Positions 6,158 to 9,352 of a DNA stretch of 50,016 nucleotides are shown here, one piece after another; position 1 is the first letter of the stretch, and each line of letters opens with the position of its first letter. The stretch is from Acidobacteria bacterium 13_1_20CM_3_53_8 (GTDB lineage: Bacteria; Acidobacteriota; Blastocatellia; Pyrinomonadales; Pyrinomonadaceae): contig MNJR01000029.1 in NCBI GenBank assembly GCA_001920415.1, forward strand, positions 1-50,016. Reading direction: 5' to 3'. Position numbers and translations under genes: made by a program. The notes beneath the pieces are model-generated. The model worked only from the letters and a program-made list of their open reading frames with translations. It was not told the DNA's origin and made no database searches.

Positions 6158-6844
6158 TTAAAGATAGCGCCCGGTGTAAGCTTCGCCCGTGAGGAAAGGG
6201 TTCGTGAGTCGCTCGCGCCCTATGGTCGTCTCAGGCCCATGACCGGAATAGACCACCACGTCGTCGCCTAGCGGAACGATTTTGTTCATCAGCGAATCCA
6301 TCAACTGCTCGCTTGAGCCGCCCGGCAAATCCGTCCTTCCGATTGAACCCGCGAATAGACAGTCGCCTACAAAAACTTTTCTCTCCTTCTCGTTGAAGAG
6401 CACTACGTGACCCGGCGTGTGTCCCGGACAATGAATCACTTTGAACTCTGAATCGCCCACGCCATAAATCTGTCCGTCCTCCCAAAATTCATCAACGGGC
6501 GGCGGCTCTTCGTAATCGAAACCGAGCGCTGCCCATTGTGAGCGCGGAATGCCTATCCACGCGGGCTGCTCAGGCAACCCCTTGTACAAGGGTTCGTCCG
6601 CGCGGTGCAGAATTATCTTCGCAAGCGGGCGCAATCTCTTGAGCGCAGCCACGCCGCCCACATGATCCATATGAGCGTGCGTCAGCGTGATGGCTTGCAG
6701 TTCAAGATGATGCCGTTCGAGAGCATCAACAATTCTTTCCGCCTCATCACCCGGATCAATGCAGATTGCTTGACGGGTTTTCTCGCAACCTACTACGCGC
6801 GTCTGCTGCTGAAAAGGCGTCACGGTAATCTCTTCAATAATCAT
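6158..6844 (-). CDS. Metallo-beta-lactamase-fold hydrolase, glyoxalase II-like
   Basis: A 228-residue single-domain cytoplasmic protein. The THAHMDHVGG motif supplies metal ligands H56, H58, D60 and H61. Further ligands are H142 in the GHTPGH motif, D161 in VGDCLFAGSIGRTD, and H202 in SGHGPETTIG. The C-terminal LTNPFL is usual for YcbL-type hydroxyacylglutathione hydrolases. This type hydrolyses thioesters such as S-lactoylglutathione or a related thiol adduct; the thiol used here is unknown. It is shorter than classical GloB because the C-terminal helical domain is absent. It is transcribed divergently from the radical SAM gene, with about 100 bases between starts. Confidence 0.9.
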   Translation of the reverse strand: MIIEEITVTPFQQQTRVVGCEKTRQAICIDPGDEAERIVDALERHHLELQAITLTHAHMDHVGGVAALKRLRPLAKIILHRADEPLYKGLPEQPAWIGIPRSQWAALGFDYEEPPPVDEFWEDGQIYGVGDSEFKVIHCPGHTPGHVVLFNEKERKVFVGDCLFAGSIGRTDLPGGSSEQLMDSLMNKIVPLGDDVVVYSGHGPETTIGRERLTNPFLTGEAYTGRYL

Positions 6845-6943: not shown

Positions 6944-9352
6944 ATGCCTGTCAGCACTAAATCCGCCTCACTCGCAAAGGTTTTAGACGAGCTTACAACT
7001 GAAGGCGCGCCGGAACTAACGGAGCATCTTGAAGGCAATGACTTGCGCTGCTACGCCTGCGGCCATCGCTGTTTGATTAAGGACGGCAGGCGCGGCATCT
7101 GCAAGGTGCGCTACAACGAGAACGGCCATCTGATGGTTCCCGTAAACTACGTCGCAGCGCTCGCCTGCGATCCCACGGAGAAGAAACCATTCTTTCATGT
7201 TCTGCCTGGCTCAGACACTTTAACCTTCGGCATGCTCGGCTGCGATCTTCACTGCGCATACTGCTTCACGGGAGATACGGTCGTCGTTACCAATCGTGGC
7301 CCAATAACTTTCCAAGAAATTTTCGAATCAGCCGAGCGCGTTGACCAGCACCCAGACGCAGAGATTGCATATCACAAAGACCTGAAGGCTGTCGCGGCTT
7401 CGGGAAAGTTGCGCGAAGTGCGTGGCGTGTTCAAACACTCATATAGAGGGAAGCTCGCTGTTGTCCGTCCTTACTATTTGCCTGCGCTACGCTGTACGCC
7501 TGACCATCGCGTTTATGCAACTGACGACACAAACAGCGCCCCCGTACTGATTCAAGCTCAAAAGCTGACAAGCAAACATTATCTGGCGATTCCTAGAAAC
7601 TACTCTTTCTCTTCAATACAAGTCGTGGATGTGGCGAAAGAGTTGAGTGCACATCAGGTGTCTTATCGCGTGCCTTGGGAATTAACTGCGGATACACGTC
7701 AGGCGATTATGGAAGCGACTGCGCGCGGCGAAACATCTCGGCAGATCGGAGCAAGATTAAATAAAGATTCCTCTTACATCCGACACGTGCGCAGCAAAAT
7801 CGCGCGCGGACTGGCGCAGGATGTTCGTTCAGGTAGAGCAATCATCGAAGAAAATATGCTGCGCTTTCCGAATGAGCACCGACCCGGAATTCCTTTATCA
7901 ATTCCCCTAGATGTCGAGATGGCGCGCCTTCTTGGTCTCTATTGCGCTGAAGGTTCTGTTTGCAGTGGCAAGAATCGTCCCAATAGTCATGTGCTTAACT
8001 TCAGCTTCTCTCATGCGGAGACCGAACTTGTTGATGAAACCATAGGGCTGATACAGAAGTGTCTGGGAGCTAAGGCCACGCGAGTGCAGCGTACAACGAC
8101 ACTGGCCGTGGCAGTGAACAAATCTTCCGCTGCTCTCTTGTTCAAATCACTTGCGGGGAAACGATCCGGTGAAAAGCGCGTTCCTCAAATTCTCTTCGAC
8201 GCTCATCGTCATATTGTTCAATCATTTCTCGATGCTTATGTGCAAGGAGACGGGCATCGGTATGAGAATGGGAAAGTGAGCATTACGACCATCTCCCGGC
8301 AGATGGCTTACGGCATTGCATGGCTAGCTTTGAAGCTTGGACACTTGCCTTCGATATACGACACAGCTATGCCGCAGGAAGGTGTCATTCAGAATCGCAC
8401 CGTTAAAAGAGCGCCGCATCAGTACACAGTAGTTTGGTATGAGAACGAGACTGTATCTCGCAAAGCTATCGAGACGAAAGATTACTATCTTGTTCCGTTG
8501 CGTGAGATCAGCTTTGAAGATTATGAAGGCGACGTATACAACATGGAGGTGGATGAAGAACACACCTATCTTGCTGGATTCTTCTCGGTATCGAATTGTC
8601 AAAACTGGATTACCTCGCAATCTCTACGTGACGATGCAGCGGGTGTTGCGCCACAGATCGTGTCGTCGGAGCGTCTGGTTGCTATGGCTAAGGCTTACGG
8701 CGCGGCGATGGTGGGTTCGAGTTATAACGAGCCGTTGATTACTGCCGAATGGGCTGTTGAAGTTTTCAAGCGTGCGAAGCCAGCAGGGTTCAGGACTGCA
8801 TTCATCTCGAACGGGAATGCTACGCCGCAGGTTTTGGATTACCTGCGCCCGTGGACTGATTGCTACAAGATTGATCTCAAATCAATGTCGGATAAGAATT
8901 ACAGGCAGTTGGGCGGTGTGGTTGATAACATTCTTGAGACGGTGAAGATGGTCAATGAGCGCGGCTTCTGGGAAGAGATAGTTACGCTCGTCATTCCGGG
9001 CTTTAACGACTCGGAAGATGAGTTGCGGCGCGCGGCTGATTTCATAGCTTCTGTCTCACCTGACATCCCCTGGCATGTGACGGCGTTTCATCAGGACTAT
9101 CACATGACTGAAAACGCCAACACGACCGCAGAGCAATTGATTCGCGCGTGCGAGATTGGACGCGAGGCTGGTCTTCGATACATCTACGCTGGAAATCTGC
9201 CGGGGCGCGTTGGCCGATGGGAGAACACTTACTGCCCGACGTGCGATGAGATTCTGGTGGAGCGCTACGGCTACATCATCAAGCAGGTTCGTGTCACGCC
9301 CGAAGGCAACTGCCCGAAGTGCGCGACACGCATTCCGGGAATATGGTCGTAA
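6944..9352 (+). CDS. amrS: AmmeMemoRadiSam system radical SAM enzyme interrupted by an intein
   Basis: The 802-residue reading frame is a radical SAM protein of about 357 residues once an internal 445-residue intein is removed. The host part starts with a cysteine cluster (CYACGHRC), then carries the CX3CX2C cluster motif: C100, C104 and, after splicing, the cysteine restored at the junction followed by QNW. The C-terminal part has the TDCYKIDLKSM and CPTCDEILVERYGY segments, with a further CPKC pair. The family is linked to MEMO1 and AMMECR1 proteins (AmmeMemoRadiSam system, substrate uncertain). Neither partner gene is in this window. Without splicing the iron-sulfur site would be split, so activity should depend on intein removal. 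The upstream Shine-Dalgarno sequence is weak (GAAGAGG). Confidence 0.9.
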   Translation: MPVSTKSASLAKVLDELTTEGAPELTEHLEGNDLRCYACGHRCLIKDGRRGICKVRYNENGHLMVPVNYVAALACDPTEKKPFFHVLPGSDTLTFGMLGCDLHCAYCFTGDTVVVTNRGPITFQEIFESAERVDQHPDAEIAYHKDLKAVAASGKLREVRGVFKHSYRGKLAVVRPYYLPALRCTPDHRVYATDDTNSAPVLIQAQKLTSKHYLAIPRNYSFSSIQVVDVAKELSAHQVSYRVPWELTADTRQAIMEATARGETSRQIGARLNKDSSYIRHVRSKIARGLAQDVRSGRAIIEENMLRFPNEHRPGIPLSIPLDVEMARLLGLYCAEGSVCSGKNRPNSHVLNFSFSHAETELVDETIGLIQKCLGAKATRVQRTTTLAVAVNKSSAALLFKSLAGKRSGEKRVPQILFDAHRHIVQSFLDAYVQGDGHRYENGKVSITTISRQMAYGIAWLALKLGHLPSIYDTAMPQEGVIQNRTVKRAPHQYTVVWYENETVSRKAIETKDYYLVPLREISFEDYEGDVYNMEVDEEHTYLAGFFSVSNCQNWITSQSLRDDAAGVAPQIVSSERLVAMAKAYGAAMVGSSYNEPLITAEWAVEVFKRAKPAGFRTAFISNGNATPQVLDYLRPWTDCYKIDLKSMSDKNYRQLGGVVDNILETVKMVNERGFWEEIVTLVIPGFNDSEDELRRAADFIASVSPDIPWHVTAFHQDYHMTENANTTAEQLIRACEIGREAGLRYIYAGNLPGRVGRWENTYCPTCDEILVERYGYIIKQVRVTPEGNCPKCATRIPGIWS
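7262..8596 (+). mobile_element. LAGLIDADG intein inside the radical SAM gene (residues 107-551)
   Basis: The intein begins at Cys107 (CFTGDTVV, block A) and ends at Asn551 (FFSVSN), followed by extein Cys552. Block B contains TPDHRV with its conserved His; block F contains EEHTYL with a conserved His. The usual penultimate His is replaced by Ser (SN instead of HN). The insert carries both dodecapeptide motifs of a homing endonuclease: LLGLYCAEG (329-337, acidic residue E336) and FLDAYVQGDG (428-437, D436). A helix-turn-helix-like segment lies around 251-290. It looks intact for splicing and possibly for DNA cleavage. Confidence 0.93.

Follow-up and report, generated by a model that had tools for sequence, protein, structure and literature searches.

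The window analysed here is a stretch of 50,016 nucleotides from Acidobacteria bacterium 13_1_20CM_3_53_8 (contig MNJR01000029.1), and it encodes an AmmeMemoRadiSam radical S-adenosylmethionine (SAM) enzyme interrupted by an intein exactly at the third cysteine of its cluster motif. The window's own genome is called G000 below; other G and L numbers denote the compared genomes and loci. The precursor is a single open frame of 802 amino acids on the plus strand (6944..9352), assigned to TIGR04337. CX3CX2C is the radical SAM cluster motif, and its first two cysteines are here Cys100 (7241..7243) and Cys104 (7253..7255), the latter at position –3 of the N-extein. That extein (residues 1–106; 6944..7261) ends in CDLHCAY and is followed by an intein of 445 residues, from Cys1 to Asn445 (precursor residues 107–551; 7262..8596), after which the C-extein (residues 552–802; 8597..9349) begins with Cys552 (8597..8599) and QNW. 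Cys552, the C+1 residue, directly follows Asn551 and completes CX3CX2C, in agreement with an earlier note on this DNA which had it become the third cluster ligand. The same note placed the intein at the third cluster cysteine of an AmmeMemoRadiSam enzyme, a placement upheld by profile matches and by empty alleles, and its predicted sizes of 445 residues for the intein and 357 for the host without it agree with the frame. Split as it is, the host matches the NCBIfam profile TIGR04337 at 243.9 bits (cut-off 220) and the Pfam profile Radical_SAM at 57.7 bits (cut-off 29.5).

Within the intein, the NCBIfam profile TIGR01445 (intein_Nterm) scores 36.3 bits on the precursor and 37.7 on the intein alone (cut-off 24.5), and its model position 1 aligns to Cys1 (Cys107 of the precursor; 7262..7264), the predicted splicing nucleophile in block A, CFTGDT. 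Block B holds the TxxH motif TPDH (7496..7507), which is found in all 11 aligned rows longer than 430 amino acids and reads TPEH in G175. Two LAGLIDADG-type motifs follow, each with an acidic residue as in LAGLIDADG homing endonucleases: LLGLYCAEG (7928..7954), which takes the form LLGxYxAEG in 11 of the 13 endonuclease-bearing rows and LFGYYCAEG in the other two, and FLDAYVQGDG (8225..8254), with FL....GDG in 13 of 13. The second is identified by Pfam LAGLIDADG_3 (PF14528; 35.2 bits on the precursor, 37.4 on the intein alone, cut-off 22.5), and PI-PkoII (2cw7), a relative of solved structure, is matched by sequence over the endonuclease at E 2.4e-15. Blocks F and G, GDVYNMEVDEEHTYLAGFFSVSN (8528..8596), close the intein with a penultimate Ser and the terminal Asn; Pfam Intein_splicing (PF14890) reaches intein residue 438, and block F has Asn where Asp is usual (VYNMEV). 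With Cys at the N-end, TxxH in block B, terminal Asn551 and Cys552 at C+1, the element has the features of a class 1 intein, Ser standing in for the usual, non-obligatory penultimate His of block G. Its splicing and endonuclease motifs (blocks A, B, F and G and both LAGLIDADG motifs) look complete, as the earlier note had it, and the profile matches and the junction are no chance result.

The boundaries of the intein are established by alleles that lack it, because in these the two halves of the host lie end to end, the N-extein being joined to residue 552 onward. A search of the full protein against 60 genomes, many of the compared genomes being metagenome-assembled, gave matches at E 1e-3 in 40. 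The halves abut at 107/552 (matches running to 107 and from 550–552) in 15 of 36 other genomes of the same family, and the site is empty in 8 of 23 genomes of the same class; three of those 36 (G025, G001 and G010) carry the intein. When the intein alone was searched against 119 family genomes, eight matched at E 1e-20: five are carriers of this intein (G000, G025, G077, G001 and G010), and the remaining three have partial matches of 29–34% identity in other genes. The match in G143 (locus L066) has coordinates and a score identical to those of G025. Around the Chloroflexota carrier G148, a full-length intein at the same site, stop-free in every case, is present in 7 of 41 genomes; 28 are empty (both halves found in 27), and the remaining six show either no E 1e-30 match or just a distant paralogue. 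Carriers are patchy yet clustered. On a 32-row extein tree, which omits G003 and G036, their distribution takes six changes, at least three of them forced by well-supported branches; the Chloroflexota and Rokubacteria rows of this tree were picked as carriers, and only the within-family scatter is informative. Among the empty alleles, that of G024 lacks approximately residues 652–761. Unusually conserved DNA at the target was considered and rejected: in 12 empty alleles mean column conservation is 0.85 for a window of 40 bases at the site, against 0.83 gene-wide, and 479 of 980 windows are at least equally conserved.

Same-site inteins in Acidobacteriota, Chloroflexota and Rokubacteria keep the splicing and endonuclease motifs and are 46–70% identical to the window intein. 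A mini-intein of 172 amino acids in G145 (Rokubacteriota), 34% identical, keeps the splicing ends without the endonuclease; G145 also has a relative of the enzyme without an intein, with 40% identity over 552–802 (L194 G145:C60, L199 G145:C54). Of 17 same-site alleles, 13 have Ser as the penultimate residue, three have Lys (G077, G144 and G145) and one has His (G175). Ser or Ala at this place is also described for cyanobacterial DnaE inteins in the available passages of PMC5874633. The earlier note had read the Ser correctly but had taken it as a warning sign, which does not hold: given its presence in 13 of 17 alleles and the DnaE precedent, we reject the penultimate Ser as a defect. Between G025 and G077, nonsynonymous and synonymous divergence are 0.15 (dN) and 0.58 (dS) in the intein and 0.06 and 0.39 in the extein; in intein comparisons with G000 the synonymous sites are saturated or nearly so. 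To judge from these values, the intein is under purifying constraint. Individual alleles of the same family carry lesions. That of G001 (L008) has an in-frame deletion that starts at extein residue 54 and stops near intein residue 24, by which two cluster cysteines and Cys1 are gone, and that of G010 (L009) one of about intein residues 4–58; the full-protein search found no second copy of the gene in either genome. The alleles of G025 (L007) and G077 (L039) have frameshifting gaps, of about 98 bases in the C-extein and of 8 bases in the intein, respectively.

The site is used well beyond this family of enzymes. We scanned 84,980 species genomes with a DNA pattern for block A starting at the third radical SAM cysteine (C-x3-C-x-[FY]-C-hydrophobic-x-G-D-T) and obtained at least 119 stretches, which are not a random sample; as the pattern is confined to that cysteine and blind to the other two, we do not claim that any of the three is preferred. 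A strict C-terminal junction in frame is present in 95 of the 119 matches listed, with Asn before C[FY]A in 92 and before CQN in three. Many of the 24 without it end at a stretch or frame edge, and at least five of them (L062, L067, L103, L133 and L149) have short frames that suggest chance matches. A block B rule restricted to TxxH, under which the junction appears in 14 of the 119 matches listed, is too strict, since many matches have SxxH. Seven of the matches listed lie in an AmmeMemo context (L044, L066, L069, L075, L076, L091 and L105); they come from Chloroflexota, Acidobacteria and Rokubacteriota, and each of the seven genomes has matches to the precursor on either side of the site. 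Among the matches listed for named genomes, the third-cysteine site is occupied mostly in Rv2578c/PA0069-type proteins. When ten other proteins were checked against NCBIfam, L047 passed NF038136 ('intein-containing Rv2578c family radical SAM protein'), L063 and L070 passed NF033668 (PA0069), L099 fell just below the cut-off, and the six viral proteins were above no NCBIfam cut-off. Viral contigs hold 26 places with the pattern in 25 stretches, 14 of them with block B and the N–C pair; a peptide-pattern search did not find the window's own intein there. One putative radical SAM gene with B12-type relatives has a third-cysteine intein in four viral contigs from different samples (L163, L172, L180 (796 aa) and L165, which is cut).

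The search for inteins at the same radical SAM site that the earlier note had suggested was productive, the genome scan and NCBIfam finding them in AmmeMemo relatives and in Rv2578c/PA0069 proteins. The case is not singular, as inteins occupy this position in further radical SAM enzymes. The motif scan and the same-site alleles reject uniqueness of the site. They indicate instead that inteins recur at the third radical SAM cysteine, in AmmeMemo enzymes of three phyla and in other radical SAM families besides. The NF038136 Rv2578c and PA0069 inteins resemble that of the window in starting at the third CX3CX2C cysteine and in ending with Asn (before CFAR or CYAR). They differ in belonging to other families, in a separate tree group, and in their penultimate His, present in 92 of the 95 junctions listed, the other three being AmmeMemo. 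The tetraether lipid synthase Tes, an archaeal lipid enzyme, offers a looser parallel: NF045703, the profile of its intein-containing form, also describes a radical SAM host and matches weakly through the C-end of the window intein into C+1, a comparison made by profile match. The open-licence literature, from which most subscription journals are absent, gives in its available passages MoaA alone as a case of an intein at a radical SAM cysteine; the parts available of PMC3655853, PMC11437467, PMC3322345 and PMC12713403 hold nothing on such inteins, and no open-licence paper on an intein with Rv2578c was found.

A tree of splicing domains (29 rows; first 115 and last 55 residues; four long branches and a three-row outgroup) gives some indication of origin. 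One group (96/88) holds the AmmeMemo inteins and, inside it, the long-branched viral row L186; the Rv2578c/PA0069 inteins form a separate group with three viral rows. A single clade of the sampled third-cysteine inteins is rejected on this 29-row tree (p-AU 0.005, approximately unbiased test), a moderate result, and on that moderate evidence the third-cysteine site has probably been invaded at least twice. The nearest neighbours of the AmmeMemo group are inteins that lie before the active-site cysteine of inosine monophosphate (IMP) dehydrogenase in the same bacterial family. Judged by the active-site motif of that enzyme, these resemble the window intein in that their C+1 residue is a catalytic cysteine; they differ in a host that is not a radical SAM enzyme and in their penultimate His. 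The window's genome contains such an intein as its second, L002 (G000:C44, match 80363–81088), exactly before the putative IMP dehydrogenase active-site cysteine. Its junction reads GPGSI then C at one end and VHN then CTTR at the other, as does that of L042 (G072), and we take the GPGSI-C/CTTR site of both to be the active-site cysteine motif of the enzyme. The window intein matches five long frames of G000 in all, namely itself, L002, L003 (C60), L004 (C57) and L005 (C119); L005 has both intein ends, and L003 and L004 have one each.

We consider the element, with a probability of about 0.88, to be a class 1 intein of full length that includes a LAGLIDADG endonuclease, mainly a homing element, whose probable redox sensitivity is most likely a by-product of its site. 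With the intein inserted where the third [4Fe-4S] cysteine is encoded, Cys1, helped by TPDH of block B, would form a thioester with the N-extein, which Cys552 would take over; Asn551 would then cyclise and an S–N shift would follow. Ligation would restore CDLHCAYCQNW with the C+1 residue as cluster ligand, and the intein gene would move into empty alleles by homing. Under oxidation, the cysteines at –3 and 1 could probably form a splicing-blocking disulfide. Its patchy presence, and the constraint on its endonuclease, suggest that homing is its primary character.

The redox part of this scheme leans on a known case. MoaA is a radical SAM enzyme, and its intein in Pyrococcus abyssi resembles that of the window in having such a host, an N-extein cysteine at –3 and Cys1 in the intein. 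According to a review (PMC3922620, passages available), Callahan and co-workers (2011) detected there a native Cys-3/Cys1 disulfide able to control activity, and a second one (PMC10663303, in the part available) describes the disulfide as shielding an oxygen-labile enzyme. The P. abyssi intein differs in its host enzyme and in coming from a hyperthermophilic archaeon; its disulfide is reported, whereas the pair in the window is known from sequence, and the two sites are equated through the –3/1 numbering. The window precursor has this pair, Cys104 and Cys107, as a consequence of the radical SAM motif, whose second cysteine falls at –3. Redox-sensitive splicing is plausible since Cys104 (–3) and Cys107 (1) are the counterparts of the P. 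abyssi MoaA disulfide pair, Cys104 being the proposed partner of Cys1. With this published precedent the idea of a redox switch is not a novel one; what the window enzyme adds is a definite pair of residues. The earlier note missed Cys104 and its pairing with Cys1 as in the MoaA trap. That note also called cluster assembly impossible until splicing is finished, which is too strong, since Cys1 fills the place of the third cysteine in the precursor (CDLHCAY, then Cys1). The SufB intein of Mycobacterium tuberculosis, in an iron–sulphur assembly protein, likewise has Cys1 and a C+1 Cys (PMC8891592, passages available) and is reported as an oxidative and nitrosative stress sensor (PMC5874633); it differs in host and site, and the available passages of these two papers describe no Cys-3 trap.

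An evolved switch would go further: the Cys104–Cys107 disulfide would hold an oxygen-sensitive enzyme as precursor until reduction, and the intein would be kept for that reason. The residue pair is that of the native MoaA trap in the passages cited, likewise in an oxygen-labile enzyme, the third-cysteine site recurs across several radical SAM families, and oxygen is probably met by the carriers, since a heme-copper oxidase is encoded in 16 of the 17 that were examined for it. However, the pair comes automatically with the radical SAM motif, the carriers are patchy, and constraint on the endonuclease is about as strong as on the splicing part, which a homing element would be expected to show. 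A link to aerobic life is not supported either, the oxidase not being significantly enriched (7/7 Chloroflexota carriers against 20/28 empty relatives; two-sided Fisher p 0.17). With this patchy presence and without significant oxidase enrichment, nothing that we found shows selection for a switch, and we regard it as an unlikely account. Somewhat less probable still is a precursor acting as metal or cluster sensor, in which an Fe-S cluster or another metal on Cys100, Cys104 and Cys107, a full CX3CX2C already in the unspliced chain, would occupy the splicing nucleophile and so block splicing, and oxidation would hold Cys104–Cys107. The DnaBi1 intein of M. smegmatis is reportedly blocked when zinc binds its catalytic nucleophile (PMC7360933, passages available). 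If the sensor reading were true, splicing would occur only on a reduced, metal-free chain, one CX3CX2C being swapped for another, and the same logic would extend to all inteins that occupy the third cysteine of a radical SAM motif.

Several results weigh against a working homing element. The carriers are more clustered than shuffled labels on the extein tree, which need a mean of 9.4 changes (6 of 500 shuffles were as low as observed), and the four Chloroflexota alleles are about as far from the window in the intein (56–57% identity) as in the extein (58–63%). Because the carriers are clustered and these cross-phylum identities similar, old vertical descent with losses also fits. Intein_splicing (PF14890) scores 33.3 bits on the precursor and 35.7 on the intein, both below its cut-off of 35.8 (by 2.5 bits and 0.1 bit), and an AlphaFold2 model of the precursor has a mean predicted local distance difference test score (pLDDT) of 60.5, falling below 50 at the junction, where it is uninformative on geometry. 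Finally, four of five same-family alleles (G001, G010, G025 and G077) are broken in assembly, which may be assembly error or real decay. Such breakage, together with the penultimate Ser and the block F Asn, would suit a degenerate intein that no longer splices, leaving the gene dead or yielding precursor only; we hold this to be quite improbable, since extein and intein are both constrained, non-His ends also occur in stop-free alleles of other phyla, and the DnaE precedent covers the Ser. The assembly of the window's genome in 155 contigs might suggest that the junction is a chimera of two genes, but the same junction in independent assemblies of three phyla in effect refutes this, and the host is restored exactly and in frame.

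Returning to the element that we favour, an insert lies between splicing block B and the endonuclease (7688..7804); it is helix-turn-helix-like, with three helices placed at 249–260, 265–272 and 276–287 by the AlphaFold2 model, and it matches HTH_38 (E 1.3e-4, 22.1 bits) below the cut-off of 27. It is visible by eye in the full-length alleles and gone from the mini-intein, and it is perhaps DNA binding. Beside the enzyme gene stands a divergent gene of the metallo-beta-lactamase fold (6158–6844, minus strand). The locus is conserved, since the same neighbour is found next to the G001 and G010 alleles. The AmmeMemoRadiSam partners A (AMMECR1) and B (Memo/LigB-like) are present in the window's genome on another contig, as one fused LigB-AMMECR1 protein of 463 amino acids (L202:625–2013; G000:C124) that combines system proteins B and A within a single chain. 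This protein scores 130.2 bits with TIGR04335 (cut-off 99) and, narrowly above the cut-off of 26, 27.7 bits with TIGR04336; in Pfam it scores 155.8 with AMMECR1 and 130.8 with LigB, and the PF01875 Memo model has no match in the window's genome.

The wider question is whether inteins are purely selfish or also act as switches. As a single locus, the window holds a finding that is ordinary in kind. In several families an intein has taken the third radical SAM cysteine; two or more intein lineages have probably done so, and every case carries with it the Cys-3/Cys1 pair of the published MoaA trap. These enzymes make a clean, repeatable test set for that question, with many hosts, one arrangement and empty alleles as controls.

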